This document shows positions 1,941 through 17,396 of a stretch of DNA of 64,000 bases, piece after piece (position 1 is the stretch's first letter; each line of letters starts with the position of its first letter). Made by a program: the position numbers and the translations under genes. The DNA is from Solirubrobacter pauli (GTDB lineage: Bacteria > Actinomycetota > Thermoleophilia > Solirubrobacterales > Solirubrobacteraceae): the NCBI RefSeq assembly GCF_003633755.1, contig NZ_RBIL01000001.1, forward strand, positions 3,271,426 through 3,335,425. The letters run 5' to 3'. The notes under the pieces are model-generated. The model saw only the letters and a program-made list of their open reading frames with translations, did no database searches and was not told the DNA's origin.

Positions 1941-1991
1941 CCGCGGCTCTGCCGCCCGCGGGTGCGCGGGAAGACGGACCACTTGCAGCAG

Positions 1992-2009
1992 CGCGGCGAC
2001 GTCGCCGCG
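1992..2009. promoter_or_regulatory. 18-bp perfect palindrome in the leader of the giant gene
   Basis: cgcggcgac followed directly by gtcgccgcg. It could be a dimeric regulator site or, in RNA, part of a leader hairpin between the small leader ORF and the 2041-2068 hairpin. Confidence 0.4.
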
Positions 2010-2040
2010 GCTCATGACCTTCAGTGCAAATGGATTTGTT

Positions 2041-2068
2041 CGGACGCTGACGGGGGTGTCAGCGTCCG
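2041..2068 (+). promoter_or_regulatory. 10-bp hairpin abutting the ribosome binding site of the giant gene
   Basis: Perfect arms cggacgctga (2041-2050) and tcagcgtccg (2059-2068) around an 8-nt loop, followed within a few bases by the purine-rich ribosome binding site (agaggagaggga) and ATG at 2088. The position suggests mRNA structure that affects translation or stability. There is no U-run, so it is not a classical terminator. Confidence 0.5.
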
Positions 2069-2087
2069 CGAGAGGAGAGGGACGAGG

Positions 2088-5000
2088 ATGCTGGGACACC
2101 GGAAGGTGTGGAGGGCCGTCGCGGCCGCGCTGACTACGAGCGCGCTGCTGATGACCCCGGGAGCCGCGGACGCGCAGAGAGCGTCGTCGATGGGTGAAGG
2201 TGCACCCGTCGGCCAGAGCGGCATTCAGCTGTACAACTTCAGGGATTACCTGAGCAGCGGCTCCGGCGAGATCGTGTGTCCGGCGTCGCCGGCGCCCGCG
2301 ACGCCGTACTGCACGCCGACGCTGCCGGCCAACAACGTGCTGGCGCGCATGGAGCGGCTGTTCGCCTTCCTGAAGGCGAACGACATCAAGAACGTCGAGC
2401 TTTATGGGTACCCGGGCAATCCGTTCCCGAGTGACTCGAGCCCGCAGGGCAACCTGCAGGGCACCATGGACCTGCGGGCCCTGGGCGACAAGTACGGGAT
2501 CCGCTTCCCGGGTCGTCACGGCAGCCTGAACGAGAGCCGCTGGGACGCCGAGATCGCGCACGCGAAGATCCTCGGTCAGGACCACATCGGCGAGGGCAGC
2601 TCCGGCGGCGCGGGCGGTCTGGGCAGCTACACCCAGACGCTGGCCACCGCCACCCAGCTCAACAAGCTGGGCAAGCGCTCGGTCGAGGCCGGCCTCGGGC
2701 CGGCGTACTTCCACAACCACGCCGGCGAGTTCTCCACGCGGTTCATCGACGCCCAGGGCGACGGAACCAACAAGAGCGCGTGGGAGATCGTCATGGAGCG
2801 CACCGACCCGCGCTGGGTCGTCGCGCAGATCGACATCGGCTGGGCCGTCTGCGGCGCCTCGGGCCACGCGACCCCGGTCGATCCGGGCGTCGGCGCGAGC
2901 TACGTCAACCAGATGATCCAGAAGTTCGGTCGCCGGGTCGTCTCCTTCCATGTCAAGGACATGGCGGCGGGCGGCATCAGCCCGAGCTGCGGTGACAACG
3001 ACCAGCGCGTGCTGGGCCAGGGCGCCATCAACTTCGCGCCGATGTTCAGCTCCGCCAAGAACAAGACGCGCTACTACTTCTCCGAGCGCGACCCGGTCGC
3101 CCTCGGCGGCGCCACGAACTTCAACCCGTTCACCAACGCTGGTGATGGCGCGAAGGCCATGCGTGGCGATCCCAAGCCGTCGCTGAAGGCGAGCCCGAAG
3201 CTCTTCCCGTCGGTCGCCAAGGGCACCCCGGCCGCGGCCAACCAGGCACCGATCAAGGTGACCAACGACGGCGACGCGCCGCTCGTGATCGCGTCGGGCT
3301 CAGGCGCGCTCAAGATCGAGGCCGACGACGCCGACGGCGGTTCCACGACGGCCGGCGACTTCGCCGTCGTCAGCGACGACTGCGCCGGCAAGACGCTCGC
3401 CCCGAACGCGAGCTGCACGGTCAACGTCGGCTTCAAGCCGACCCGCACCAACTACACGTCGGTCGCGCGCCTCGTGATCGACTCCAACAGCGACGACGGC
3501 GTCGAGCGCATCCTCATCGCCGGCGCGCAGACGCCGCCGAAGGTGCTCGTCTTCCGTGGCGCGACCGACGCGGTCAACACCGCCGGCCTCGACGCCATCA
3601 AGGCGCTCGGCACCGCGAACGACTTCCTCGTCCAGGACACGTCGGACGCGACCGCGTTCAACGCGACCAACCTCGCCAACTACCGCGCGGTGGTCTTCCT
3701 CGACAACAAGGGCGACCTGCTCAACGCCGGGCAGGAGACGGCGCTGCAGAACTACATCCAGGGCGGCGGCGGCTTCGTCGGCATCGGCGGCGCAGCCGAG
3801 GCCGAGACGGCCAACACGTTCATCACCGGCCTGATCGGCGCGCGTCCGGACTCGGCGAGCCCGACCACGGCCAGCAACCAGGTCCTGGTCGCCGGTGACC
3901 GTGCGCACCCGTCCACCCGTGACCTCCCGCTCGAGTCGACGGTCAGCGACATCTGGTACCGCTGGACCACGCGTCCGACCGGCCAGGTGCACACCGTCGC
4001 GCGCTACCGCGCTCCCGGCGCGGCGGCCGGCGACGGCACGACGACCGGCGGCACGGACTGGCCGATCTCCTGGTGCCGTGACTACCAGGGTGGCCGCTCC
4101 TTCTACACCGGCCTGGGTCGCACCGCGGCCGCGTACGGCCAGGACAACCTGAAGAAGCACCTCCTGGGTGCGATCGAGTGGGCCGGCGGCCTCGTCCGCG
4201 GCGGCTGCAAGGCCACGATCCTGTCCAACTACACGACGCAGCGCGTCGTGGACGCCACCAGCGGCAACCTGAACAACACGGGTGAGTCGCACGGCGTCGC
4301 CCCGGCCTCCAACGGCTGGGTCTTCTACATCGGCCGTGCCGACTGCCGCACCGACGCCGAGCGTGGCGCGATGATCGGCCAGGCCTCGAGCCCCCGCATC
4401 ACCGACTTCGCCAACCGCAACGTCGGCGTGGGCTGCGGCACCGTCCACATCTTCGACCCGAAGGCCGCCACCGGCTCGGTCAACTCCGGCATCACCAAGG
4501 CCGGCGTCATCCCGGTCTACGGCGACCGTGGGTCAGGAGACGAGATCAACGGCAAGATCGAGACCGGTCTGCTGGGCATCGCCCCGTCCCCGGACTTCGC
4601 GACGACGGGTCACATCTACCTGCAGTACTACCCGACGTTCAACCCGGACAACCCGGTGCTGCCGGGCATGCAGGACGGCGACGCCCGTCGCATCACGAAG
4701 ATCGCCCAGGCGCGCATCTCGCGCTTCACGGTGGACCTGAGCACCAAGAAGCTCAAGCTGGACTCCGAGGTCCCGATCTTCAAGTACGACGCGCAGGTCT
4801 ACAGCTGCTGCCATCGCGGCGGCGGCATGGCCTTCGACTCGCAGGGCAACCTCTACGTGACGACGGGTGACTCGAACTCGTCGCAGGGCACGAACGGCTA
4901 CTCGGGCAACAACCAGACCTTCAAGTGTCCGGTCGGCCCCGCGACCGAGGTGTCCAACAACCATTGCGGCACGGCCAACTTCTCGTACCGCGACGCGCGC

Positions 5001-8000
5001 CGCACGGCGGGCAACACGAACGACTACAACGGCAAGATGCTGCGCTTCAACCCGATCGAGCAGATCGCGGACGGGGCGAAGCCGACGGTGGGTCCGGGCA
5101 CGACGTACGCGCTCCCGACCGCCTCGTCGCCGAACGGTCCCAACCTGTTCGACGGCACCGAGGGCGGCGGCGGCAAGGCCAAGCCCGAGATCTACGCCAT
5201 GGGCCTGCGCAACCCGTCGCGCATGTCGATCGACCCCAAGACGGACATCCCGTACGCCGCGTGGGTCGGGCCGGACGCCGGCAACCCGTCGGCGACCCAG
5301 GGCCCGTCGACCTACGAGAGCGCGACGCAGCTCCCGTCCGCCGGCAACTACGGCTGGCCGTACTGCATGGGCAACCAGCAGGCCTACCGCGATCGCACCG
5401 CCGACGGCAACCTGCGCACGACCAACGTCGCCGGCTACGTCAACGGCGGTCCCGCCAGCGCGCCGACCCCCGGTTGGTACGACTGCAAGAACCTCGTCAA
5501 CGACTCGACGAACAACACGGGCCTCACGACGCTGCCGCATCAGACGGGCACGGGCAAGGACGCCGGCACGGCGCGCCCGCACAACGTCTGGTACAGCCGC
5601 GGCAACCCGGGTGGCAACAACGGCTGCCCCGACTTCGCCCGTCCGAACGGCGCCGACACCGCGCCGGACTACGGCGGAACGCCGACGCAGAAGTGCCCGT
5701 ACATCACCGCCTCGGGCGCGACCGTGTTCGACGGCCCGGTCTACCGCTACGACGACAAGGCGACCGACAACTCGGTCCGCTGGCCGGAGTACTGGGACGG
5801 CCGCTGGTTCCTGAACGACTACGGCAACAGCTCGGTCAAGCACGCGCTGCTGCTCGATCCGGCGACGGATCAGGACGGCTCGCAGCCGATCTACGCGGAC
5901 AGCTTCCGCGGCGGTCTGCCGTGGGGCGCCAACTACATGGACTCGAAGTTCGGCCCGGACGGCGCCCTCTACGTGCAGGTCTACGAGGGCTTCTTCTCGA
6001 CCGGCAACAACGCGGGTCTGTACAAGATCAGCTACACGGGCGGCAACGACTCGCCCGGCGCCGATCCGCAGTGGAAGTCCACGACCACCCCGCGTGAGGC
6101 CGAGTTCTCGGTCGGCGCGTCCGGTGGCGTCGCGTACGAGTGGGACTTCGGCGACAACACGCCGACGTCCGCCGCGCCGAACCCGCGTCACACGTACGCG
6201 GAGACCGGCACCTACACGGCCAAGCTGACCGTGACCTACGCCGACGGCGAGAAGCAGTCGAAGTCGATCACCGTCACGGTGGGCGCGGACTCGACGGCTC
6301 CGACCCTGACCGCGCTGATCAACGGCCAGACCCCCACGACCCGTTACACGAGCTCGCCGGTGGACTTCACCGTGCGCGCGAGCGACGGCGGCACCGGCTC
6401 GACCGGCGTCGAGTGGATCGAGCGCCGCATCGACGGCGGCGGCTGGACGCGTGCCGACAACACCGGCAACGCCGAGCCGTTCGAGACAAAGTTCCAGGTC
6501 AGCGGCGGCGGCTCGCACACGGTCGAGTACCGCGCGCGTGACCGGGCCGGCAACGTCTCCGAGCCGGTCGGCTCGACGACGTTCACGATCGACCTGCCGA
6601 CGAGCGGCGGCGGCTGCCTCCCGCAGTCCGACGAGTTCACCGGCAGCGCGCTGGACTCCAAGTGGAGCGTGCTCCGCTCGGCCGGCGGTGGCCCGACGGT
6701 GGCCAACGGCAGCCTGAGCCTGCCGATCCTCCAGGGCGACCTGATCGCCGGTGACCCGCTCGCCTCGAACGTCGTCCTCCAGGACGCGCCGAGCGGCGAG
6801 TGGAGCGCGACCGCGAAGCTCGACACCAGCGGCCTCAACGCCAACGGCGAGCAGGCCGGCATCGTGATCTGGAAGGCGGAGAACCCGAACTCGTTCTCCA
6901 AGCTGGTCGCGATCCAGTCCGGCAACGGCACGCACCAGTTCGAGCACATCGTCACGCAGTCCGGGTCCGTGAACCCGCCGATCGCGTCGAGCATCACGCC
7001 GGCCCCGGGTGGCACCCTGCCCGCCCAGGTCCTCCTGCGTGCCCGCTACGACGGCACCAAGGTCATCGGTGAGTTCTCGGCCGACGACGGCGCGAACTGG
7101 ACCAAGGTCGGCAACGCCGAGCACTCGGCGCCGTTCACCGGCAGCCTGCGCGTGGGCGTGGTCGCCTTCCGCGGCTCCAACGGCGGCGGCAACGCCACGT
7201 TCGACTGGTTCCGCGTGAAGTCCGGCTCGTCCGAGACGGCGCCGGTCACCTGCGCCGCGGGCTGCTCGCCGCAGTCGGATCAGTTCAACGGCACGTCCGT
7301 CGATCCGAAGTGGCAGCTGATCAACCCGGTCGCGGGCAAGGAGCCCACCGTCGGCAACGGCCATCTCACGATGCCGATCATCCGCGGTGACCTCTACGAG
7401 GGCCAGGGCACCGCCCAGACCCTTCTGCAGTCCGTGCCCTCGGGCTCGTGGGTCGCGACGGCGAAGATCGCCCACGCGAACATCAGCCAGAACGGCGAGG
7501 CTGCCGGCCTGGCGCTGATCAACACGCTCAACCCGAACAACCTGCTCAAGACGACGATCCAGTACAAGGACGACGTCGACCCGAACACGTCCGGCAACCA
7601 GCCGGGCAAGTGGGCCGAGCGGGTCCTGACGTCCAACAACGCCGCGATCACGTTGCCCCCGGCGACGGTGCCGTGGCCGAACTCGGGCGGGCTGAACCTG
7701 TCCAACCCGTACGTGTACGTCCGCTTCGTCTACGACGACGCGAAGAAGGAAGTCACCACCTGGAGCTCGGCCAACGGCACGACGTTCACGTCGTTCGGCG
7801 CGCCGATCTCGGTGACGCAGTACCTGTCCGGGGCCGGTGGCCTCCGGGTGGGCGTGTTCGCAAAGCACGACGGCTCGGCCGATGACACGGTCCAGTTCGA
7901 CGCGTTCAACGTCGTCTCGGGCAACGACCCGCAGACGAGCGGCGACGACTGCGGCGGTGCCGCGGGCTGCCCGCAGACGGACGAGTTCAACGGCACCACG

Positions 8001-10976
8001 ATCGACCCCAAGTGGTCGCTCGTGAACCCGATCTCGGGCGCCGCCCCGACGGTGGCCAACGGCCGCCTGGTGGTGCCGCTGCGTCAGGCCGACCTGTACG
8101 CGGCCACGGGCAACGCTCAGCTCCTGCTGCAGGACGCGCCGGCCGGCTCGTGGACCGCGACCGCCAAGGTCGTCCACGGCGGGCTGACCGCCGACGGCGA
8201 GGCACTCGGGCTGGGGCTGATCAACAGCTTCAACCCCAACTACTTCGTCAAGGCGACGCTGCAGTACAAGAACGACACCAACCCGAACGTCTCGGGAGCC
8301 CAGCCGGGCAAGTGGGCCGAGCGGGTGCTGACCTCCAACGGCCAGGCGATCACGCTGGCGCCGGCGACCGTGCCGTACCCGAACTCGGGCGCGCTCACGT
8401 TGCCCGGTGACTTCGCGTACGTCCGGCTCGCGTACGACGACGTGACCAAGACGCTCACCACGTCCACGTCGACGGACGGCACCACGTTCACCACGTTCGG
8501 CGCGCCGATCTCGACGACGCAGTACCTGAACCAGCCGGGCGGCTTCCGCGTCGGCGTGTTCGGCAAGCGCGACGCGAGCTCGCAGAACAAGACGGTCGAG
8601 CTCGAGTCGTTCACGATCGAGTCCGACGGCTGCGGCACCGGTGGCGACACCGCCGCTCCGCGTACCACCCACACGCTCGATCCGGCCACGGCCGACGGGT
8701 CCGCCGGTTGGTACAAGGGCAACGTGAAGGTCACGCTCGCCGCGACCGACAACGAGGGCGGCACGGGCGTCGACTACACCGAGTACCGCAAGCAGGGCAC
8801 CACGGCGTGGACGCGCTACAGCGCTCCGTTCACGATCGAGGACGCCGGCAGCACCACGATCGAGTACCGCTCGGTTGACAAGAAGGGCAACGTCGAGTCC
8901 ACTCGCACGGTGTCGTTCAAGATCGACAAGGCGGCCCCGACGACGAGCGCGAAGCTCAACGGCGAGGCGCCGAAGGCCCAGTACGACGGTCCCGTCGCGG
9001 TCGACCTCGATGCCACCGATGGCTCGGGCTCGGGCGTGGCGAAGACCGAGGTCCGCGTCGACGGCGGCGAGTGGAAGCCGTACGTGGAGGAGGAGACGAT
9101 CCTCAACTCCGCGGCCGACCTCGCCAAGTGGGCGCAGACCGGCGCCGGCGGCCTGAACTGGGTCGACGACGCGAGCGGCGGGTACGCCCGCACGTTCTCG
9201 GGCTTCGGCATGCCGTGGTACCCGGTCAAGGAGTACGGCGACTTCGTCGTCAAGCTCCAGTGGCGTGACTCGAGCACCGGCACGAGCGGCAACGGCGGCG
9301 TCTTCGTGCGCTTCCCGGACCCGGTCGAGGCGGCAGCCCGTCCGGCGGCACAGCGTCACGCCTGCCAGGTGGGTTCGGGTCAGACCGATCCGACGTGGGT
9401 CGCGATCTTCTGCGGCCACGAGATCCAGATCAACGACAACCAGCCGTCCGAGCCGCAGAAGACGGGCTCCGTGTACAACTTCTCGGCGCTCGACTCGACG
9501 CAGGCGAAGGTCCAGCCGCGTGGCACGTGGGTCGACTACGAGATCAAGGTCGTCGGCCAGACGTACACGATCACCCGCAACGGTGAGGTGCTGCAGACGT
9601 TCCAGAACACCCCGGGCAAGACGTCCTCGCGCTCGGGTGACCCGTCGACGACGGACCGTCAGTTCACGAAGGGCTTCATCGGCCTCCAGAACCACGGCTC
9701 GAGCGACATCATCGACTACCGCAACATCCGCGTGGAGCCGCTGGACTCGGGCTCCGTCAAGAGCGGGTTCCAGGTCACCGGCAACGGCGACCACAAGGTC
9801 GAGTTCCGCTCGACGGACCTCGCCGGCAACGTGGAGACGACCAAGTCGGTCGACTTCAAGATCGGCAGCCAGCCGGCGGGCGAGAAGACCCCGCCGGTCA
9901 CGACGGGCAGCCTGAACCCGGCCACGCCGGGCGCGGGTGGCACGTACAACGGCCCGGTCGACGTGACGCTGTCCGCGACCGACCCGGCTGAGCAGGGCAC
10001 GGGCGGCGGCGGCACGCCGAAGACGCTCGACGTGAGCGCCTTCCCGGATCACTGGGAGCCCGACGCGCTGACCGCCACGGTCGGTGACACGGTGCGCTGG
10101 AACTTCCCGGCCGCCACGGCGGGCTCGGTGCATGACCTGTGGCTGATCAAGCCGAGCGACCCGCAGGGCTACACCGGCACGCGTCTCAGCAACAACAACG
10201 GCGGCATCGTGCTGCCGGGCGACCCGCCGATCAGCCAGACGGTCGCCGAGGCCGGCACCTACCAGTTCCTGTGCAAGATCCACGCGAACATGAAGGGCAC
10301 GATCACGGTCACCGCCGGTGGCGGCGGCACCGTGCCGGGCTCGGGTGTCGACTACACCGAGTACCGCGTCAACGGCGGTGAGTGGACGAAGAAGAGCAAC
10401 ACGTCCAACGCCTCGCCGTTCGTGACGACGTTCAAGGCGGAAGCCGAGGGCGCGTACGCGATCGAGTACCGCTCGGCGGACAAGGCCGGCAACGTCGAGG
10501 CCACGAAGTCCCTCAGCTTCAACATCACGAAGCCGTCGGACTCGACCTCGGTGGACGCCGACCTGAACGCGCAGGTGCCGCGGGCCATGGGCATCTCGCT
10601 CGCCGGCTCGGTGACGTTCGGGGCGATCGTCCCGGGCATCGCGAAGGACTACGACGCGGGCACGACCGTCCGCGCCACGTCCAGCGTCGCGTCGTCGAAG
10701 CTGACGATCTCCGATCCCAGCTCGACGGCCACCGGCCACCTGGTCAACGGCGCGTTCGCGATGCCGCAGGCCGTCAAGGTCGGCGTCGGCGCCACCCCGG
10801 CGTTCGCTCCGCTCGGCGGCGCGTCCAGCCCGACGGTGCTCGCCACGTGGGCGCATCCGCTGGCCAACGAAGCGGTTGACCTGAAGTTCCGGCAGTCTGT
10901 CGCCGAGGGCGACCGCCTGCTGGAGGGCAACTACAGCAAGCGCGTGACGCTGACTCTGTCGGCGACCACGCCGTAG
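2088..10976 (+). CDS. giant secreted multidomain protein: sugar isomerase-like / ThuA / sugar dehydrogenase / PKD / 3-keto-hydrolase / cupredoxin
   Basis: 2962 aa. Start at 2088 is set by the strong gaggagaggga site and an immediate signal peptide (MLGHRKVWRAVAAAL, Ala-rich core, cleavage near ADAQ). Domains in order, approximate residues: AP-endonuclease-2-type TIM barrel 45-345 (YFHNHAGEF, IDIGW, SFHVKD, FSERDP as metal-site motifs); choice-of-anchor/ASPM-like 361-481; ThuA 484-710; PQQ-type glucose/sorbosone dehydrogenase propeller 710-1318 with His909 (CHRGGGM) and Arg1041 (GLRNP); PKD 1323-1401; Ig/OmpL47-like repeats; three concanavalin-like domains 1510-2181; DUF1080 3-keto-disaccharide hydrolase 2334-2555; cupredoxin 2643-2745 (His2682, Cys2729, His2732, Met2735); C-terminal domain 2822-2962. 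TIM barrel, ThuA and DUF1080 families are all known from 3-keto-glycoside metabolism. The combined role is inferred. Confidence 0.9.
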   Translation: MLGHRKVWRAVAAALTTSALLMTPGAADAQRASSMGEGAPVGQSGIQLYNFRDYLSSGSGEIVCPASPAPATPYCTPTLPANNVLARMERLFAFLKANDIKNVELYGYPGNPFPSDSSPQGNLQGTMDLRALGDKYGIRFPGRHGSLNESRWDAEIAHAKILGQDHIGEGSSGGAGGLGSYTQTLATATQLNKLGKRSVEAGLGPAYFHNHAGEFSTRFIDAQGDGTNKSAWEIVMERTDPRWVVAQIDIGWAVCGASGHATPVDPGVGASYVNQMIQKFGRRVVSFHVKDMAAGGISPSCGDNDQRVLGQGAINFAPMFSSAKNKTRYYFSERDPVALGGATNFNPFTNAGDGAKAMRGDPKPSLKASPKLFPSVAKGTPAAANQAPIKVTNDGDAPLVIASGSGALKIEADDADGGSTTAGDFAVVSDDCAGKTLAPNASCTVNVGFKPTRTNYTSVARLVIDSNSDDGVERILIAGAQTPPKVLVFRGATDAVNTAGLDAIKALGTANDFLVQDTSDATAFNATNLANYRAVVFLDNKGDLLNAGQETALQNYIQGGGGFVGIGGAAEAETANTFITGLIGARPDSASPTTASNQVLVAGDRAHPSTRDLPLESTVSDIWYRWTTRPTGQVHTVARYRAPGAAAGDGTTTGGTDWPISWCRDYQGGRSFYTGLGRTAAAYGQDNLKKHLLGAIEWAGGLVRGGCKATILSNYTTQRVVDATSGNLNNTGESHGVAPASNGWVFYIGRADCRTDAERGAMIGQASSPRITDFANRNVGVGCGTVHIFDPKAATGSVNSGITKAGVIPVYGDRGSGDEINGKIETGLLGIAPSPDFATTGHIYLQYYPTFNPDNPVLPGMQDGDARRITKIAQARISRFTVDLSTKKLKLDSEVPIFKYDAQVYSCCHRGGGMAFDSQGNLYVTTGDSNSSQGTNGYSGNNQTFKCPVGPATEVSNNHCGTANFSYRDARRTAGNTNDYNGKMLRFNPIEQIADGAKPTVGPGTTYALPTASSPNGPNLFDGTEGGGGKAKPEIYAMGLRNPSRMSIDPKTDIPYAAWVGPDAGNPSATQGPSTYESATQLPSAGNYGWPYCMGNQQAYRDRTADGNLRTTNVAGYVNGGPASAPTPGWYDCKNLVNDSTNNTGLTTLPHQTGTGKDAGTARPHNVWYSRGNPGGNNGCPDFARPNGADTAPDYGGTPTQKCPYITASGATVFDGPVYRYDDKATDNSVRWPEYWDGRWFLNDYGNSSVKHALLLDPATDQDGSQPIYADSFRGGLPWGANYMDSKFGPDGALYVQVYEGFFSTGNNAGLYKISYTGGNDSPGADPQWKSTTTPREAEFSVGASGGVAYEWDFGDNTPTSAAPNPRHTYAETGTYTAKLTVTYADGEKQSKSITVTVGADSTAPTLTALINGQTPTTRYTSSPVDFTVRASDGGTGSTGVEWIERRIDGGGWTRADNTGNAEPFETKFQVSGGGSHTVEYRARDRAGNVSEPVGSTTFTIDLPTSGGGCLPQSDEFTGSALDSKWSVLRSAGGGPTVANGSLSLPILQGDLIAGDPLASNVVLQDAPSGEWSATAKLDTSGLNANGEQAGIVIWKAENPNSFSKLVAIQSGNGTHQFEHIVTQSGSVNPPIASSITPAPGGTLPAQVLLRARYDGTKVIGEFSADDGANWTKVGNAEHSAPFTGSLRVGVVAFRGSNGGGNATFDWFRVKSGSSETAPVTCAAGCSPQSDQFNGTSVDPKWQLINPVAGKEPTVGNGHLTMPIIRGDLYEGQGTAQTLLQSVPSGSWVATAKIAHANISQNGEAAGLALINTLNPNNLLKTTIQYKDDVDPNTSGNQPGKWAERVLTSNNAAITLPPATVPWPNSGGLNLSNPYVYVRFVYDDAKKEVTTWSSANGTTFTSFGAPISVTQYLSGAGGLRVGVFAKHDGSADDTVQFDAFNVVSGNDPQTSGDDCGGAAGCPQTDEFNGTTIDPKWSLVNPISGAAPTVANGRLVVPLRQADLYAATGNAQLLLQDAPAGSWTATAKVVHGGLTADGEALGLGLINSFNPNYFVKATLQYKNDTNPNVSGAQPGKWAERVLTSNGQAITLAPATVPYPNSGALTLPGDFAYVRLAYDDVTKTLTTSTSTDGTTFTTFGAPISTTQYLNQPGGFRVGVFGKRDASSQNKTVELESFTIESDGCGTGGDTAAPRTTHTLDPATADGSAGWYKGNVKVTLAATDNEGGTGVDYTEYRKQGTTAWTRYSAPFTIEDAGSTTIEYRSVDKKGNVESTRTVSFKIDKAAPTTSAKLNGEAPKAQYDGPVAVDLDATDGSGSGVAKTEVRVDGGEWKPYVEEETILNSAADLAKWAQTGAGGLNWVDDASGGYARTFSGFGMPWYPVKEYGDFVVKLQWRDSSTGTSGNGGVFVRFPDPVEAAARPAAQRHACQVGSGQTDPTWVAIFCGHEIQINDNQPSEPQKTGSVYNFSALDSTQAKVQPRGTWVDYEIKVVGQTYTITRNGEVLQTFQNTPGKTSSRSGDPSTTDRQFTKGFIGLQNHGSSDIIDYRNIRVEPLDSGSVKSGFQVTGNGDHKVEFRSTDLAGNVETTKSVDFKIGSQPAGEKTPPVTTGSLNPATPGAGGTYNGPVDVTLSATDPAEQGTGGGGTPKTLDVSAFPDHWEPDALTATVGDTVRWNFPAATAGSVHDLWLIKPSDPQGYTGTRLSNNNGGIVLPGDPPISQTVAEAGTYQFLCKIHANMKGTITVTAGGGGTVPGSGVDYTEYRVNGGEWTKKSNTSNASPFVTTFKAEAEGAYAIEYRSADKAGNVEATKSLSFNITKPSDSTSVDADLNAQVPRAMGISLAGSVTFGAIVPGIAKDYDAGTTVRATSSVASSKLTISDPSSTATGHLVNGAFAMPQAVKVGVGATPAFAPLGGASSPTVLATWAHPLANEAVDLKFRQSVAEGDRLLEGNYSKRVTLTLSATTP
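7261..8630 (+). repeat. tandem duplication of a ~220-residue concanavalin-like domain inside the giant gene
   Basis: Segments 7261-7925 and 7966-8630 encode two closely similar beta-sandwich domains: both begin Cys-Pro-Gln-(S/T)-Asp-(Q/E)-FNGT, share QPGKWAERVLTSN and end with a GLRVGVF / GFRVGVF strand. A third, more divergent and shorter copy precedes them (6616-7250, starting CLPQSDEFTGS). These resemble the C-terminal carbohydrate-binding-like domain of family-43 glycosidases (DUF1349 type). They are probably glycan- or surface-binding modules. Confidence 0.75.
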
Positions 10977-10988
10977 CACGCAGTTCGT

Positions 10989-11023
10989 CCCCGCCCCCCG
11001 CGGCACTGCCGCGGGGGGCGGGG
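10989..11023 (+). terminator. strong hairpin between the giant gene and its paralogue
   Basis: Perfect 15-bp GC stem (10989-11003 with 11009-11023) and 5-nt loop cactg, 12 bp past the giant gene stop. A T6 run occurs only 17 nt further on (11041-11046), so this is not a textbook intrinsic terminator. It may act as a partial terminator or mRNA 3' stabiliser that separates expression of the giant protein from the four genes behind it. Confidence 0.6.
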
Positions 11024-11064: not shown

Positions 11065-14000
11065 ATGACCGACGCTCTGCAACACAGAGGCACCCGGCGC
11101 CGCCGGATACGCCGCGCGCTCTACGGCGCGGTGACGGCGAGCCTGATCGCGGCCGCACCGGCCAGCGCCGACGCGGGCAGGGTGCTCGTGTTCACCGGCA
11201 CCGCCGGCAGCGCCAACCCCAGCACGCCGGCGGCGGTGTCCGCCGTGCAGGCGCTCGGGGCGGCGAACGACTTCACCGTCGACGTCACGGCTGAGGCGAG
11301 TGCCATCAGCGTCACCAACCTCGCGCGGTACCGCGCGGTGGCGTTCGTCCACAGCGCCGGAGACGTGCTCGACACGGGCCAGCAGGCCACGCTCGAGTCC
11401 TACGTCACCGGCGGCGGCGGCTTCGTCGGCATCGGCGAGACCGCCAAGCTCGAGGAGGGCCAGACCTTCTTCGACACGCTCATCGGCCTGACCGGCAGCA
11501 GCCGCACGACCGGCGCGGCGACCACGCCGCAGGACGTCGAGTTCCTCGACCGCGTGCACCCCGCCTCCCGCGCGAACCCGCTCGTCTGGAAGCGCCACAC
11601 GGACACGTACTACAAGTGGACCGCGAACCCGACCGGCAAGGTGCACACCGTCGCTCGCGTGCGCTTCGGCGCGCTGCCCAACGGCACGTCGATCACGAAC
11701 GACACGGTCACGCAGCACGCCGGCACGGGCGACCGCATGCAGAGCCAGCAGGAGCGCGCGCTGTCATGGTGCCGCGACGTCGGGCAGGGGCGGTCCTTCT
11801 ACACCGCGCTCGGCGGCACCGCGGCCGCGTACGACGAGACCGAGGTCAAGCGCCAGCTGCTCGGCGCGCTCCAGTGGGCCGGCGGCATGGTCCGCGGCAA
11901 CTGCAAGGCCGCGATCGACGCGAACTACACCGCCACCCGGCTCGCGCAGAGCCCGGACGTGGTCGCGCTGACGACGGCGGACGACGGCCGCGTCTTCTCC
12001 GCCACCCGCGACGCGCTCCACGTCGGGGACGTCAAGGTCGCCGACTTCAAGGTCACGGGCGCGCACGGCGTGCTCGGCCTCGCGCTCGACCCCGCCTTCA
12101 TGCAGGGCCGGCCGTACGTCTACGTGCAGTACTTCCCGTCCGGCAAGGGCGAGCTCGGCGCGACCACGACGGACCCCGCCAAGCAGCTCGGCCCCGGCCG
12201 CGACCTGATCACGCAGATGGGCGAGCGCCGCGTGTCGCGCTTCACGTACGACCAGGCCGCCAAGACGCTCGTGACCGGCTCCGAGCGCGTGATCTTCCAC
12301 TGGATGACGCCGGTCTACCGCGAGGGCCGCGTCGGCGGCGCCATGGACTTCGACTCCGCGGGCAACCTCTACTTCGCGTCGGGCGACACGATCGACGGCG
12401 CCGCCAACGCGTACCGCGGCGGCTACACCAACGCGCACGAGGAGCACACGCTCCCGGGCAGCGGCGGCGAGATCTCCTTCGGCGACGCGCGCGGGACCGC
12501 GGCCAACACCAACGCCTACGAGGGCAAGCTGCTGCGGATCAAGCCGCTCGCCGACCCGGGCTCCGTGCCCGGCGTCGGGCGCACCTACTCGATCCCGGGT
12601 GAGAGCGCGCCGAACGGCCCGAACCTGTTCCCCGCGTCGGGCCTGGCGAAGCCCGAGGTGTTCGCGATGGGCTTCTCGGACGTGCGGTCGATCGACATCG
12701 ACGCCAAGACCGACACGATCTCCGCCGCCTGGTCGGGCACCGGGCAGACCGCGAACGCGGTCACGTGGGGCCCCGCCAAGACGGAGAGCGCCGCGCGCAT
12801 CAAGGCCGCCGGCAACTATGGCTGGCCGTACTGCGGCGCCGGCAACCGCTTCGGCTACCGCGCGACGCTGCCCGCCATCGGTGGCGGCGGGGCGGCCAAC
12901 CTCGGCTGGCCCGACACGCCGCGCGGCACGGTCGGCGGCGGCGCGGACGGTGACGCGGGCGCGTTCTGGGACTGCTCGAAGGCGCTCCCGAACGACTCGC
13001 CGTTCAACACCGGCATGAAGGACATCCCCGCGCCCAAGCCGGCCAACGTCTGGTACGGCCCGCAGGGTGGCTGCTACGACTTCCCGCGCAACGCCAACGG
13101 CGTCGCGCTCTACAACGACACGAACACGTCGACGGGCACGGACACGACCCGCACGTGCCCGTGGGCGCTCGGCGGGGAGCAGTCCGTCGTCACCGGCGGC
13201 ACCTACCGGCGCCCCGCCCAGCCGACGGCCGACGCCTGGCCCGCGTACTGGGACGGTCGCTGGCTCGTGGCTGACGCCGGCGCCGCGAGCGTGCACCACG
13301 CGCTGCTGATGGACCCGGCCACCGAGGCCGACGGCGGCCAGCCCGTCGCGGTCGACTCGCTCGCCGCGATCCTACCCGAGCACCTGCGCACGCTCGAGCT
13401 CGGCCGGGACGGCACGCTCTACACGGCCACGGACACCGGCGTGTGGCGCGTCGCCTACACCGGCGGCGACGACACGCCCGGCCCCGACCCGCGCTACGTG
13501 GTCCACGAGGGCACGACGGTCGTCGACTTCGACGCCGGCCGCTCCGGCGGCGTCCGCTACGAGTGGACGTTCTCCGGCGGTGGCACCGCGACCGGCGCCA
13601 CCGTGACGCACGCGTTCGGCGCCGACGGCGCCCAGCAGGCGACGCTCACCGTCATCTACGCCGACGGCGAGCGCGTCAGCCGGACGATCACCGTGCAGAT
13701 CCCGCCGGTGCCCGCCGCGCAGGCCAACGTCGAGCTGACCGCGGTCGTCCCGCGCACGCTCGGCCTCACGCTCGGCGCGCCGGCCACGTTCCCGGCGATC
13801 ATCCCGGGTGTCGGCGCGACCTACACGGCGACGACCACCGTGACCGTGCTGTCGACCGCGTACACGTCCACGCTGCGCGTCTCCGACCGCAGCTCGGTCG
13901 CACCCGGGCACCTCGTCAACGGCGCGACGGCGATGCCGCAGGCGGTGCGCGTGCGGGTGGAGGACCAACCCTTCGCCCCGCTCTCCGCAACACCCTTGAC

Positions 14001-14139
14001 CCTACGAACCTGGACGGACCCGGTGGCAGCGCAGACGCTGACCGTCGGCTTCCAGCAGCCGGTCGCCGACACGGACCGGCTGCTCGAAGGCCGATACGCG
14101 AAGACCCTGACCTTCGAGCTGGGGGCGACGACGCCATGA
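11065..14139 (+). CDS. secreted ThuA / sugar-dehydrogenase-propeller / PKD protein (paralogue of the giant protein)
   Basis: 1024 aa with an Arg-rich signal peptide (RRRRIRRALYGAVTASL, cleavage near ASADA). Domains, approximate residues: ThuA 40-284, glucose/sorbosone dehydrogenase-like beta-propeller 285-801, PKD 810-883, then a ~135-aa C-terminal domain (888-1024) homologous to the giant protein's end (GHLVNG, AMPQAV, DRLLEG). It parallels the middle of the giant protein. By my alignment the propeller has lost the conserved His (GRVGGAM instead of CHRGGGM) and the GLRNP arginine (GFSDV here), so it may bind sugar or be inactive as a dehydrogenase. No clear Shine-Dalgarno is seen before ATG 11065. 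The stop overlaps the next start by 4 bp (ATGA). Confidence 0.88.
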   Translation: MTDALQHRGTRRRRIRRALYGAVTASLIAAAPASADAGRVLVFTGTAGSANPSTPAAVSAVQALGAANDFTVDVTAEASAISVTNLARYRAVAFVHSAGDVLDTGQQATLESYVTGGGGFVGIGETAKLEEGQTFFDTLIGLTGSSRTTGAATTPQDVEFLDRVHPASRANPLVWKRHTDTYYKWTANPTGKVHTVARVRFGALPNGTSITNDTVTQHAGTGDRMQSQQERALSWCRDVGQGRSFYTALGGTAAAYDETEVKRQLLGALQWAGGMVRGNCKAAIDANYTATRLAQSPDVVALTTADDGRVFSATRDALHVGDVKVADFKVTGAHGVLGLALDPAFMQGRPYVYVQYFPSGKGELGATTTDPAKQLGPGRDLITQMGERRVSRFTYDQAAKTLVTGSERVIFHWMTPVYREGRVGGAMDFDSAGNLYFASGDTIDGAANAYRGGYTNAHEEHTLPGSGGEISFGDARGTAANTNAYEGKLLRIKPLADPGSVPGVGRTYSIPGESAPNGPNLFPASGLAKPEVFAMGFSDVRSIDIDAKTDTISAAWSGTGQTANAVTWGPAKTESAARIKAAGNYGWPYCGAGNRFGYRATLPAIGGGGAANLGWPDTPRGTVGGGADGDAGAFWDCSKALPNDSPFNTGMKDIPAPKPANVWYGPQGGCYDFPRNANGVALYNDTNTSTGTDTTRTCPWALGGEQSVVTGGTYRRPAQPTADAWPAYWDGRWLVADAGAASVHHALLMDPATEADGGQPVAVDSLAAILPEHLRTLELGRDGTLYTATDTGVWRVAYTGGDDTPGPDPRYVVHEGTTVVDFDAGRSGGVRYEWTFSGGGTATGATVTHAFGADGAQQATLTVIYADGERVSRTITVQIPPVPAAQANVELTAVVPRTLGLTLGAPATFPAIIPGVGATYTATTTVTVLSTAYTSTLRVSDRSSVAPGHLVNGATAMPQAVRVRVEDQPFAPLSATPLTLRTWTDPVAAQTLTVGFQQPVADTDRLLEGRYAKTLTFELGATTP

Positions 14140-15920
14140 AGCGCTCACTGCCCTGGATCGTCTGCGCGATGATCGCGCTCGTCTGCGCCCCCGCGTTCGC
14201 GGTCGGGTCCCAGGAGGACCCGGTGCCGGTCGCGAACGTCGTCGTCTCCGACAGCGGGTTCCACGACGCCGCCGCGACCGATCCCGAGGACCGCACGGTC
14301 GACGTCGTGGCCGGTGGCCGGGTGAACTTCAGCTACCCGTCCGGCACCGGCGAGTACAACGTCGTGTGGGACCGCGGGAGCCTCGTGCCCGCGTCCTGCG
14401 AGCAGACCGCCGGCCCCGACTGGGGCGTCGGCACCACGCTGCCGTGGTGGACGCAGGGTCCCGGCTGGGCCGGCTTCTGCACGTTCACCGTGCCGGGGAC
14501 GTACACGTACCACTCCGGCATCAACCCGGACGGCTTCAAGGGCACCGTCGTGGTGCACGCGACGGGCACGCCCACCGCGACCCCGACGGCCACCCCGACC
14601 GTCACGGCGACGCCCACGGCGACCGCCACCGCCACCGCCACCGCGACGCCGCCGACCAGCGCCCGCATCAGCGCGCACGACAACTGGTTCCAGGACGCCG
14701 CCGGCTCCGGCACCAGCGACAGCACGGTGACGATCCAGGCGGGTGGGAAGGTCACGTTCGACTACCCGGTCGGCGCGAACTACCACAACGTCGACTTCCG
14801 GACGGCGGCCAAGCCGGGCAGCTGCGTGAAGACCAAGCAGTCGCCGACGCTGCCGCTCGCCGACTCCGACACGCTGCCGCCGATGCCCGACTTCGCCCAG
14901 CCGCCCGGCTGGGAGGGCGAGTGCACGTTCGCGACGCCCGGCACCTACACGTTCGTGTGCAGCACGCACCCGACGGAGATGTCCGGCACCGTGATCGTCG
15001 AGCAGGGCGGCGGCGAGCCGACCCCGACGCCGACGGCCACGCCGACCGTCACGCCGACGGCGACCCCCACGGCCACGCCGACGCAGACCGCGTCGCCGCA
15101 GCCGACGGTGGCGCCCGGACGCCCCGCGATCCAGGCGCACGACCGGACGTCCCCGACGGCCAAGAACTGGTTCCAGGACGCGTCGAGCACCGACGAGTCC
15201 GACGCGACGGTGAACATCGCCCCGGGCGGCACGGTCGACTTCAGCTACCCGGCGGGCACGAGCGTGCACAACGTCGTGTTCGTCGACCAGCCGACGTCGT
15301 GCGTGCAGAAGACCGGCGTCGCCATCACCCCGGCCCCGCCGCTGCCGCAGTACTCGCAGCCGCCGGGCTGGTCGGGCGAGTGCACGTTCGCGAACCCGGG
15401 CGTCTACACGTTCGTCTGCCAGGCGCACCCGGCGGAGATGGAGGGCAAGGTCGTCGTCGGTGACGTCGGCGAGCCGACCCCGACCCCGACGCCGACCGCC
15501 ACGCCGGAGCCGCCGCGGGACATCGTCCCGGCGAAGGTCCCGAAGCCGTGGGCGGCGATCGACAAGCCCAAGACGTCCCAGATGACCGTGGCCAAGTTCC
15601 TCGCGAAGAAGCTCACGATCAACTCCCGCTGCGTCTCGGCGGGCACGGGCACGATGACCATGACGATCGGCAACCAGCTCGCCGCGCGGCGCCTCAAGCT
15701 CAAGAAGCGCCAGGGCGCGGTGGTGCTGGCGACGGCCGACGCGACCTGCAACCAGTACGGCCGGTTCACGGTCAAGCTGAAACCGACCAAGAAGGCGCGT
15801 GACGCGCTCGAAGACTATGCCCGCTCGGTCCCGGTGACGTTGACGCTGACGCTCGCCGGCCCGATCGGGACGACCACCGCAGTGCGAACGATCACGCTGA
15901 AGGGCAAGGGGCGCCGTTAG
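14136..15920 (+). CDS. secreted protein with three cupredoxin-like domains on Thr-Pro linkers
   Basis: 594 aa; the ATG at 14136 overlaps the upstream stop as ATGA. Signal peptide MKRSLPWIVCAMIALVC, cleavage near AFA. Three plastocyanin-like domains follow. The second has a full type-1 copper set (His217, Cys275, His278, Met282), as does the third (His378, Cys428, His431, Met435). The first lacks all four (Tyr, Ser, Asn, Phe at those places) and cannot form such a site. Domains are joined by TPTATPT-type linkers, plausible O-glycosylation targets. A C-terminal beta-domain rich in Lys (RRLKLKKRQG) ends the protein. Likely an extracellular electron shuttle or copper carrier for the adjacent multicopper oxidase; this role is inferred from context. 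Confidence 0.85.
   Translation: MKRSLPWIVCAMIALVCAPAFAVGSQEDPVPVANVVVSDSGFHDAAATDPEDRTVDVVAGGRVNFSYPSGTGEYNVVWDRGSLVPASCEQTAGPDWGVGTTLPWWTQGPGWAGFCTFTVPGTYTYHSGINPDGFKGTVVVHATGTPTATPTATPTVTATPTATATATATATPPTSARISAHDNWFQDAAGSGTSDSTVTIQAGGKVTFDYPVGANYHNVDFRTAAKPGSCVKTKQSPTLPLADSDTLPPMPDFAQPPGWEGECTFATPGTYTFVCSTHPTEMSGTVIVEQGGGEPTPTPTATPTVTPTATPTATPTQTASPQPTVAPGRPAIQAHDRTSPTAKNWFQDASSTDESDATVNIAPGGTVDFSYPAGTSVHNVVFVDQPTSCVQKTGVAITPAPPLPQYSQPPGWSGECTFANPGVYTFVCQAHPAEMEGKVVVGDVGEPTPTPTPTATPEPPRDIVPAKVPKPWAAIDKPKTSQMTVAKFLAKKLTINSRCVSAGTGTMTMTIGNQLAARRLKLKKRQGAVVLATADATCNQYGRFTVKLKPTKKARDALEDYARSVPVTLTLTLAGPIGTTTAVRTITLKGKGRR
14571..14656 (+). repeat. short tandem repeats encoding a Thr-Pro/Ala linker
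   Basis: Hexanucleotide-like repeats of ccgacg/ccaccg (including several consecutive ccaccg units at about 14624-14645) encode alternating Thr-Pro and Thr-Ala. Similar degenerate stretches lie at 15021-15090 and 15477-15507 in the same gene, each after a cupredoxin domain. They may be prone to slippage and length variation. Confidence 0.7.
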
Positions 15921-17396
15921 ATGGACTGGGAACACGACGGCATGACGCGGCGCTCGGCGCTGTACTACGGCGTCTCGAGCCTCGCGCTGGTGTGCTCGTT
16001 CGACTTCGACAAGCGCGCGCGGGCCTCGCGCGGCAAGACGAGCGCGGCCGTGCGCTCGCAGGCCTCGAGCGCGTTCGAGCCGTTCCAGCGCGACCTCCCG
16101 CTGCCCCCGGTGGCGCGGCCGGTGCGCGCGAGCAAGCAGCTCGAGGAGTACGTGATGGACATGAAGCCCGGGACGGCGGAGATCCTGCCCGGGCTCGAGA
16201 CGCCGATCCTCGGCTACAACGGCTCGTTCCCCGGCCCGACGATCCGCGCGCGGCGCGGGCGGCCGGTGCACGTCACCCAGCGCAACCAGAGCGGGCGTGA
16301 GCTGAACGTGCACCTGCACGGCGGCGTCACGCCGCCCGAGTACGACGGGCACCCGCACGACTCGATCCCCGACGGCGCCGAGCGGCTCTACAAGTACCCG
16401 AACGTCGCCCACTCGGCGACGCTCTGGTACCACGACCATGCGCACGGCGAGACGCACAAGACGCTGTTCGCCGGGCTGGCCGCGTTCTACCTGCTCGACG
16501 ATCCCGACGACAAGCACCTGGACCTGCCGCAGGGCGACTACGACGTCCCGCTGATGATCATGGACCGGTCGTTCAACAAGGACGGCTCGTTCCGCTATCG
16601 CTACGACCTCGACCGCGGCTTCCGCGGCGACACGATCCTCGTCAACGGCGCGGTCGCGCCGCGGATGAAGGTCGAGCGGCGGCTGTACCGCCTGCGGTTC
16701 CTGAACGCCTCCAACGCACGCGCCTACACGCTCAAGCTCGGCAACGGGCGCGACATGATCCAGATCGGCTCCGACGGCGGCCTGCTGCCGACCGCGGTGC
16801 GGCGCAAGGAGATCCCGATGGAGCCGGCGGAGCGCGTCGACGTGATCGTCGACTTCCGCCAGTTCGGCGTCGGGTCGAAGGTCATCCTCCACAACGAGGG
16901 CGGGGAGCCGTCGACGAGCGCGGTCATGCGCTTCGACGTGGTCAAGGCCACCGGCGCCGAGGAAGCGCGCATCCCCAAGCTCCTGCGCGAGGAGGAGGAG
17001 ATCCCGGAGGTCAACGCCGAGCGCTCCTGGCCGCTGACGTTCCAGGGCCTCGCGGGCGGCGCGTCGATGTGGCAGATCGGCGGTGGCGGGTTCAACGAGA
17101 TGCGGATCGACTGCCGTCCGCGGCTCGGCTCGACCGAGCTGTGGACGTGGCGCAACCTGTCCCAGCGCACGCACCCGATGCACACGCACGGCTACCACTT
17201 CCGGGTGGTCAGCGTGAACGGCAAGCAACCGCATCCGGGCGACCGCGGGTGGAAGGACACGGTCGCGGTCTATCCCAACGAGACCGTGGTCGTGCGGCCG
17301 TACTTCGACTACTACGCCGGCCTGTACGTGTTCCACTGCCACGCGGCCGAGCACGGCGACATGTCGATGATGGGCCAGATGGAGGTGGTCGCATGA
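15921..17396 (+). CDS. multicopper oxidase (CotA/bilirubin-oxidase-like)
   Basis: 491 aa, starting at the base after the previous stop with an aagggg ribosome site 9 nt upstream. An ATG at 15942 is a possible alternative and begins MTRRSALYYG, a twin-arginine-like export signal, so Tat export of the folded enzyme is plausible. All four copper-binding segments are present: HLHGG (~res 131), WYHDHAHG (~170), HPMHTHGYH (~417) and HCHAAEHGDM (~472), giving the type-1 Cys/His/Met site and the trinuclear cluster. The family couples one-electron oxidation of substrates or cupredoxins to reduction of O2 to water. Flanked on both sides by cupredoxin genes; the stop overlaps the next start (ATGA). Confidence 0.92.
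   Translation: MDWEHDGMTRRSALYYGVSSLALVCSFDFDKRARASRGKTSAAVRSQASSAFEPFQRDLPLPPVARPVRASKQLEEYVMDMKPGTAEILPGLETPILGYNGSFPGPTIRARRGRPVHVTQRNQSGRELNVHLHGGVTPPEYDGHPHDSIPDGAERLYKYPNVAHSATLWYHDHAHGETHKTLFAGLAAFYLLDDPDDKHLDLPQGDYDVPLMIMDRSFNKDGSFRYRYDLDRGFRGDTILVNGAVAPRMKVERRLYRLRFLNASNARAYTLKLGNGRDMIQIGSDGGLLPTAVRRKEIPMEPAERVDVIVDFRQFGVGSKVILHNEGGEPSTSAVMRFDVVKATGAEEARIPKLLREEEEIPEVNAERSWPLTFQGLAGGASMWQIGGGGFNEMRIDCRPRLGSTELWTWRNLSQRTHPMHTHGYHFRVVSVNGKQPHPGDRGWKDTVAVYPNETVVVRPYFDYYAGLYVFHCHAAEHGDMSMMGQMEVVA

Follow-up and report, generated by a model that had tools for sequence, protein, structure and literature searches.

A single open reading frame of the soil bacterium Solirubrobacter pauli encodes a giant protein, predicted to be secreted, in which two neighboring immunoglobulin (Ig)-like repeats of the OmpL47 type are interrupted, one by a DUF1080 domain and the other by a cupredoxin. 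This raises the question of whether each repeat is one domain with another nested inside it and, if so, whether such repeats form a modular scaffold with a single fixed loop open to cargo, as a preliminary description of this DNA suggested. The gene lies in a 64,000-nucleotide stretch (assembly GCF_003633755.1, contig NZ_RBIL01000001.1, positions 3,271,426 to 3,335,425) that we call the window and in which positions are counted from the first nucleotide. Judged from sequence, the two repeats (R2 and R3) are Ig/FN3-like OmpL47-type repeats, each split by one whole foreign domain. The insertions are in frame, old, conserved, and cargo-specific in position. Our best overall explanation, to which we give a probability of about 0.7, is that two specific nested domains are mounted at both ends in a secreted sugar-oxidizing protein. 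The segments concerned are as follows, where profile positions are those of a hidden Markov model (HMM) of the repeat.

8646..8930, + strand: OmpL47-type repeat R1, uninterrupted (59.2 bits; modeled as an Ig/FN3/PKD-like sandwich)
8931..9083, + strand: N-terminal half of R2 (strands A, B, C, C'; profile 3-52; ends ..EVRVDGGEWKPY)
9084..9764, + strand: insert 1, DUF1080 / 3-keto-disaccharide hydrolase domain with linkers (core about 9087-9746; PF06439 95.2 bits)
9765..9887, + strand: C-terminal half of R2 (strands E, F, G; profile 56-87; begins GFQVTGNGDHKVEFRSTD)
9888..10001, + strand: N-terminal half of R3 (strands A, B; profile 2-33; ends ..VTLSATDPAEQGT)
10002..10340, + strand: insert 2, cupredoxin with Gly-rich linkers (PF00127 21.8 bits)
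10341..10544, + strand: C-terminal half of R3 (strands C, C', E, F, G; profile 35-87; begins SGVDYTEYRVNGGEW)

All of this is in one frame (1962-10976, + strand, 3004 codons, opening at GTG 1962). The protein matches NCBIfam NF047446 (OmpL47-type) in five stretches with 179.6 bits against a cut-off of 40; with 98.2 bits, under the cut-off of 250, it falls outside NF047441, the equivalog for the Leptospira OmpL47 surface protein. R2 breaks after ..GGEWKPY (last base 9083) and resumes behind DUF1080 with GFQVTGNGD.. (from 9765). R3 breaks after ..SATDPAEQGT (last base 10001) and resumes behind the cupredoxin with SGVDYTEYR.. (from 10341). Using an HMM trained on 274 full repeats, all from genera other than Solirubrobacter, we found that the N- and C-terminal halves of R2 scored 32.2 and 28.5 bits and the rejoined repeat 63.8 bits (profile 3-87); the corresponding values for R3 were 9.2, 34.6, and 45.7 bits (profile 2-87). 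Rejoined R2 exceeds intact R1 (59.2 bits), and R0, an intact repeat further upstream, scored 48.8 bits. When one half was shuffled in 200 trials, the best score was 45.7 bits for R2 (mean 33.1) and 40.9 bits for R3 (mean 35.5), and wrongly joined halves reached 27-35 bits. The inserts themselves scored below 0 bits. By their rejoined scores relative to the shuffles, R2 and R3 each qualify as one whole, discontinuous OmpL47-type member; the nesting first noted in these neighboring repeats thus stands, with its coordinates and quoted residues. The locus has the features of a domain insertion (A1-B-A2), namely complementary host halves, a whole second domain, conservation across homologues, and a homologue lacking the insert (L085, below). 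A frameshift or assembly artifact was ruled out because the same interruptions are kept in six other Solirubrobacter genomes, with no stops.

Residues 2228-2864, which cover R1 to R3 with the inserts, were modeled with AlphaFold2 (AF2). The mean predicted local distance difference test score (pLDDT) was 85.3 and the predicted template modeling score (pTM) 0.55, the latter as expected of beads whose mutual placement is unsure. Repeat halves that fail to pack into one sandwich had been named in the preliminary description as the refuting outcome, and the model bears on this indirectly: each half of R2 and R3 has the strands expected from an uninterrupted repeat, mostly at high confidence, with pLDDT mostly about 87-95 in the R2 halves (about 90-94 in the C-terminal one) and about 82-93 in the R3 halves, the linkers being weaker. 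R1 modeled alone reached pLDDT 95.3 and pTM 0.85. Among solved folds, FN3, PKD, and Ig-type sandwiches come closest to it (Z 8.4 or less), so that "OmpL47-type beta-barrel" is a name only and the repeat is predicted to be Ig-like, as had been proposed. A fold search with the three-repeat model was filled by DUF1080 and lectin-like folds and held no information on the split repeats; its top Foldseek rows (mastigonemes, complement) were set aside as long bead proteins.

The two inserts occupy different loops. DUF1080 enters after profile position 54, behind the W..Y of strand C' (C'-E loop), and the cupredoxin after position 34, behind ATD and ahead of SGVDYTEYR (B-C loop); the sites stand about 20 residues apart in the repeat profile. 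In all loci seen, the host profile breaks off at about 54 and continues from about 52 around a nested DUF1080; around a nested cupredoxin, the corresponding positions are about 34 and 33. The predicted strands agree with two separate insertion loops: in R1, strands B, C, and E span model residues 28-35, 43-50, and 63-65, leaving short B-C and C-E gaps; in R3, residues 446 and 569 mark the end of strand B and the start of C; in R2, residues 139 and 376 mark the end of strand C and the start of E. Length variation among 378 intact repeats is concentrated after positions 17, 32-34, 48, and 54, which places both cargoes in naturally variable loops. In some homologues (L059, residues 1401-1502, and relatives), the repeat preceding the cupredoxin-bearing one has about 20 extra residues in the C-C' loop, which makes this a third loop of variable length, and no domain there.

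We then asked how widely this arrangement occurs. Orthologues were present in all six other Solirubrobacter genomes searched, the full-length ones being 72-88% identical, and those on complete contigs carry both inserts at the same places. Among 80 loci kept from a GTDB scan, nested DUF1080 occurred only in Solirubrobacter and in the metagenome-assembled genome RSA11. A second search, covering 396 genomes from the phylum, brought one more with nested DUF1080, from another actinobacterial family (G434). Within the family and class of Solirubrobacter, no other genus among the genomes searched showed the nested architecture. The G434 locus (L228; frame from 3868, 894 amino acids) encodes a free DUF1080 and, behind it, two OmpL47 repeats that are both interrupted by a DUF1080 of their own at the site used in S. 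pauli. The two nested copies share 56% identity with one another and 50-52% with the S. pauli domain, and the rejoined hosts scored 49.7 and 52.3 bits. The pair is a duplicated composite module, and the DUF1080 nest can duplicate in tandem. RSA11 also has cupredoxin-split repeats (L220, profile 1-34 / 33-87, 57.4 bits when rejoined; L222, profile 1-33 / 34-87).

Paralogues carry the inserts separately. DUF1080 is nested and there is no cupredoxin in L060 and L081-L084; the cupredoxin is nested and the preceding repeat is whole in L059 and L086-L091. In paralogue L085 (frame from 370), R2 is whole (..GGAWTAYTGTFQVTGNG..), R3 has no cupredoxin, and the C-terminal region comes directly after (residues 1069-1270). 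A tree built on R1 and R2 after removal of the inserts placed L085 inside the insert-bearing orthologue clade (support 100/99, inner fork 92/96), and the simplest reading of these sequences is a clean loss of the DUF1080 insert. On this tree, the history of nested DUF1080 needs 2-3 changes, with which single and repeated origin both fit. In a tree of DUF1080 domains, where the row L099_N1489 is the non-nested domain of the next reading frame, the nested clades and the DUF1080 found C-terminally in ThuA-GSDH-PKD proteins meet in a fork whose order the tree does not resolve.

The same modules occur elsewhere in Actinomycetota in other arrangements. In Amycolatopsis, Nonomuraea, Kibdelosporangium, and others, a gene for a ThuA-GSDH-PKD-DUF1080 protein is followed by one for a protein with a cupredoxin and OmpL47 repeats, and Micromonospora and Asanoa have one linear protein, cupredoxin-(OmpL47)6-DUF1080. 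Systems such as L112 and L106 share the module set of the S. pauli protein but hold it in series, with DUF1080 C-terminal and no nesting; in Micromonospora, DUF1080 is likewise fused behind the six repeats rather than nested. Because the modules stand end to end or in adjacent genes elsewhere, the Solirubrobacter giant represents a familiar actinobacterial set in nested form, and this form probably arose where the modules already neighbored each other. The cupredoxin-(OmpL47)n proteins encoded after the ThuA-GSDH-DUF1080 genes (L112, L106, L137, and similar loci) share a short conserved domain at their end, ..DTRxTVVIG..VENxxxGxGCTxxDxI.., to which no Pfam model could be assigned.

Both inserts are recognizable members of known families. 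The first matches PF06439 (DUF1080) over residues 2385-2591 (95.2 bits, cut-off 26.8) and forms a complete domain in the AF2 model (model residues 149-368), matching 3s5q at Z 19.2 and both 8rr2 and 8tda at Z 17.8. By profile score and fold it belongs to the 3-keto-disaccharide hydrolase / DUF1080 family, relatives of which are 3-keto-sugar hydrolases (PMC9007349). The fold also matches 9fbe and 8v31, which are 3-keto-glycoside eliminase/hydratase structures by their PDB titles. These solved 3-keto-glycoside eliminase/hydratases and 3-keto-2-hydroxy-glucal hydratase (8rr2, 9fbe, 8tda, 8v31) have the same fold as the insert (Z 17.8-18.4), but their chains consist of the domain alone and are about 20% identical to it, and the activity of the insert is only predicted. 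E2487, Q2489, D2492, and H2578 are among the residues invariant across nested and free DUF1080. The second insert matches PF00127 (Copper-bind) marginally over residues 2698-2783 (21.8 bits, cut-off 21.2). It has the type 1 copper ligands His2724, Cys2771, His2774, and Met2777 (numbered from the frame start at 1962), which are conserved in orthologues, and the profile score together with this His...Cys-x2-His-x(n)-Met set identifies it as a cupredoxin. The closest parallel is plastocyanin/amicyanin (1kdi, E 3.7e-5), with which it has the cupredoxin sequence and copper ligands in common; those proteins are soluble carriers, whereas this cupredoxin is nested in an Ig-like loop.

The remainder of the giant protein and the three same-strand genes that come after it (11065-17396, +) give these domains a context:

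2088..10976, + strand: giant protein predicted to be secreted (frame opens at GTG 1962; start and signal peptide read from sequence)
2169..3170, + strand: xylose-isomerase-like TIM barrel (AP_endonuc_2; PF01261 34.9 bits, cut-off 31.1; PDB kin 8tcs, 8tcd, 8tct)
3540..4184, + strand: ThuA domain (PF06283 163 bits)
4542..4886, + strand: best-matching stretch of a GSDH domain, pyrroloquinoline quinone (PQQ)-dependent sugar dehydrogenase-like (PF07995 57.7 bits, two stretches)
6084..6281, + strand: PKD domain (PF18911 50.4 bits)
6291..6590, + strand: OmpL47-type repeat R0, uninterrupted (48.8 bits, HMM from other genera)
6627..7220, + strand: first copy of GH43_C2, concanavalin-like (PF17851 76.1 bits, two stretches)
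11065..14139, + strand: ThuA, GSDH, and PKD protein, 1024 amino acids (kept in S. phytolaccae, 80% identity)
14136..15920, + strand: tandem-cupredoxin protein predicted to be secreted, 594 amino acids (PF00127 59.3 bits; conserved in S. phytolaccae)
15921..17396, + strand: CueO-like multicopper oxidase, 491 amino acids (PF07731, PF07732; below the CueO equivalog cut-off)

The domain order is thus TIM barrel, ThuA, GSDH, PKD, R0, GH43_C2 copies, R1, R2, R3, and a C-terminal region. ATG 2088 is the likely start (2962 codons); it is preceded by a purine-rich GAGAGGAGAGGGACGAGG, it agrees with the residue numbers quoted in the preliminary description, and the N-terminus that follows, MLGHRKVWRAVAAALTTSALLMTPGAADAQ, looks like a signal peptide. 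The closest PDB kin of the TIM barrel are sugar isomerase/epimerase-like. We estimate that GSDH extends to about 5950, and similar GH43_C2 copies continue to about 8620, the third being judged by sequence similarity. The neighboring genes are conserved in S. phytolaccae at 80-91%. Multicopper oxidase homologues adjoin five nested paralogues (L060, L081, L083, L084, L092) and L101 of RSA11; at the same threshold, none lies beside the non-nested actinobacterial loci. The genes at 11065-17396 suggest that electrons from an extracellular sugar dehydrogenase could leave along a copper route. The protein at 14136-15920 has three cupredoxin-like units on Thr/Pro-rich linkers, of which unit 1 is without the copper-site Cys (..YTYHSGINPDGFKG..) and the other two retain C-x2-H.

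These neighbors, together with the DUF1080 relatives, lead us to propose a secreted oxidative sugar-cleavage protein with a copper electron exit. Each insert would be an independently folded domain anchored at both ends, so that the repeats would serve as rigid two-point mounts on a bead-string protein. The GSDH/PQQ-like domain would oxidize sugars, and the nested DUF1080, by analogy with its solved relatives, would cleave or hydrate 3-keto-glycosides or 3-keto-glycals. The nested cupredoxin would hand electrons on, with the tandem-cupredoxin protein as the probable intermediate, to the CueO-like multicopper oxidase and thence to O2. Beta-elimination of 3-keto-glycosides is a known activity of a TIM-barrel Mn2+ enzyme (PMC10628242); the S. 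pauli barrel may be a candidate for that class. If this functional reading is true, an extracellular 3-keto-glycoside pathway and its own copper exit are contained in one giant Gram-positive protein.

Several points weigh against this explanation. The packing of the halves in R2 and R3 is predicted from profile scores and modeled strands rather than from contacts; the putative catalytic residues of DUF1080 are known by invariance rather than from a solved active site; the binding of copper and of PQQ, the enzyme activity, and the flow of electrons are all predictions; and among the flanks examined, the full cupredoxin and oxidase operon was matched only in S. phytolaccae. The indirect packing evidence, and the fact that partial repeats are common in repeat proteins, would allow the halves to be independent truncated repeats that merely flank DUF1080 and the cupredoxin. 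We find this scarcely credible: in all nested loci the halves complement each other around a single point, R2 when rejoined scores above intact R1, its C-terminal half is modeled at pLDDT about 90-94, and an orthologous R2 without the insert exists in L085. Equally improbable is a circular permutation or swap in which the C-terminal half of R2 and the N-terminal half of R3, contiguous at 9765-10001 and providing strands E, F, G, A, and B, form one permuted Ig domain between the inserts. Such a pair lacks strands C and C' and leaves the other two halves unpaired, and paralogues with only one insert (L059, L060) keep the other repeat whole or the same split. The doubt about DUF1080 is more substantial, since its fold is also similar to that of CBM66 lectins (Z 15.7), annotations as DUF1080 and as CBM66 overlap (PMC5673643), and the protein consists mostly of binding or bead domains. 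The nested DUF1080 could then be a non-catalytic, CBM66-like carbohydrate-binding module and the cupredoxin purely structural. We regard this as unlikely because 3-keto-glycoside hydratases match better (Z 17.8-19.2), polar residues are invariant in nested and free DUF1080, and the full copper ligand set is conserved.

The remaining alternatives concern the mounting of the inserts. Two unrelated cargoes in adjoining repeats, the tandem nested repeats of L228, and the loss of the DUF1080 insert in L085 might speak for the general scaffold with one fixed loop, open to any cargo, that was first envisaged. This is highly unlikely, as each cargo keeps to its own loop in every locus seen and the two loops are separated by about 20 residues. 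The same repeat carrying other inserted domains had been suggested as something to look for in related genomes; no third cargo type was found in the S. pauli genome or among the 80 GTDB loci, a survey that was not exhaustive, and the further OmpL47 repeat regions of S. pauli that were examined showed no complementary split. What survives of the scaffold idea is that the repeats carry or lose two cargoes; the single loop does not. In FN3-type topology, the B-C and C'-E loops are at the same pole of the sandwich, and by analogy "one pole" may hold where "one loop" fails. Extending this, the two loops could be dedicated mounts that fix the hydratase and the copper center in adjacent orientation, with TIM-barrel eliminase, PQQ dehydrogenase, hydratase, and electron carrier to the multicopper oxidase on one secreted polypeptide; to this arrangement we give only a slim chance.

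Domain insertion of the A1-B-A2 type, in which a host domain is broken by a whole independent domain, is found in 20% of multidomain proteins; the insert is the smaller partner in 77% of cases (median length 115 residues, against 199 for hosts; PMC13114784). The S. pauli protein shares the broken host and differs in proportions: DUF1080 (227 amino acids with linkers) is about 2.5 times the size of its 92-residue host, and the cupredoxin insert (113 amino acids) is slightly larger than its 106-residue host. It also differs in having two adjacent homologous hosts with different cargo in different loops. Within the part of the literature covered, we found no paper on OmpL47 repeats as hosts, nested bacterial Ig domains, or PQQ-cupredoxin fusions. 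Nesting within OmpL47-type Ig-like repeats is thus apparently undescribed so far, although domain insertion as such is well known. A short Ig-like repeat can host, at two loops, domains that equal or exceed it in size, and natural gain, clean loss, and tandem duplication are all exemplified; the two loops therefore offer evolution-tested insertion sites for protein engineering.

Opposite the giant gene, the minus strand holds an open frame of 2157 codons (4533-11006). We did not accept it as a gene and took it instead as a by-product of high G+C codon usage.

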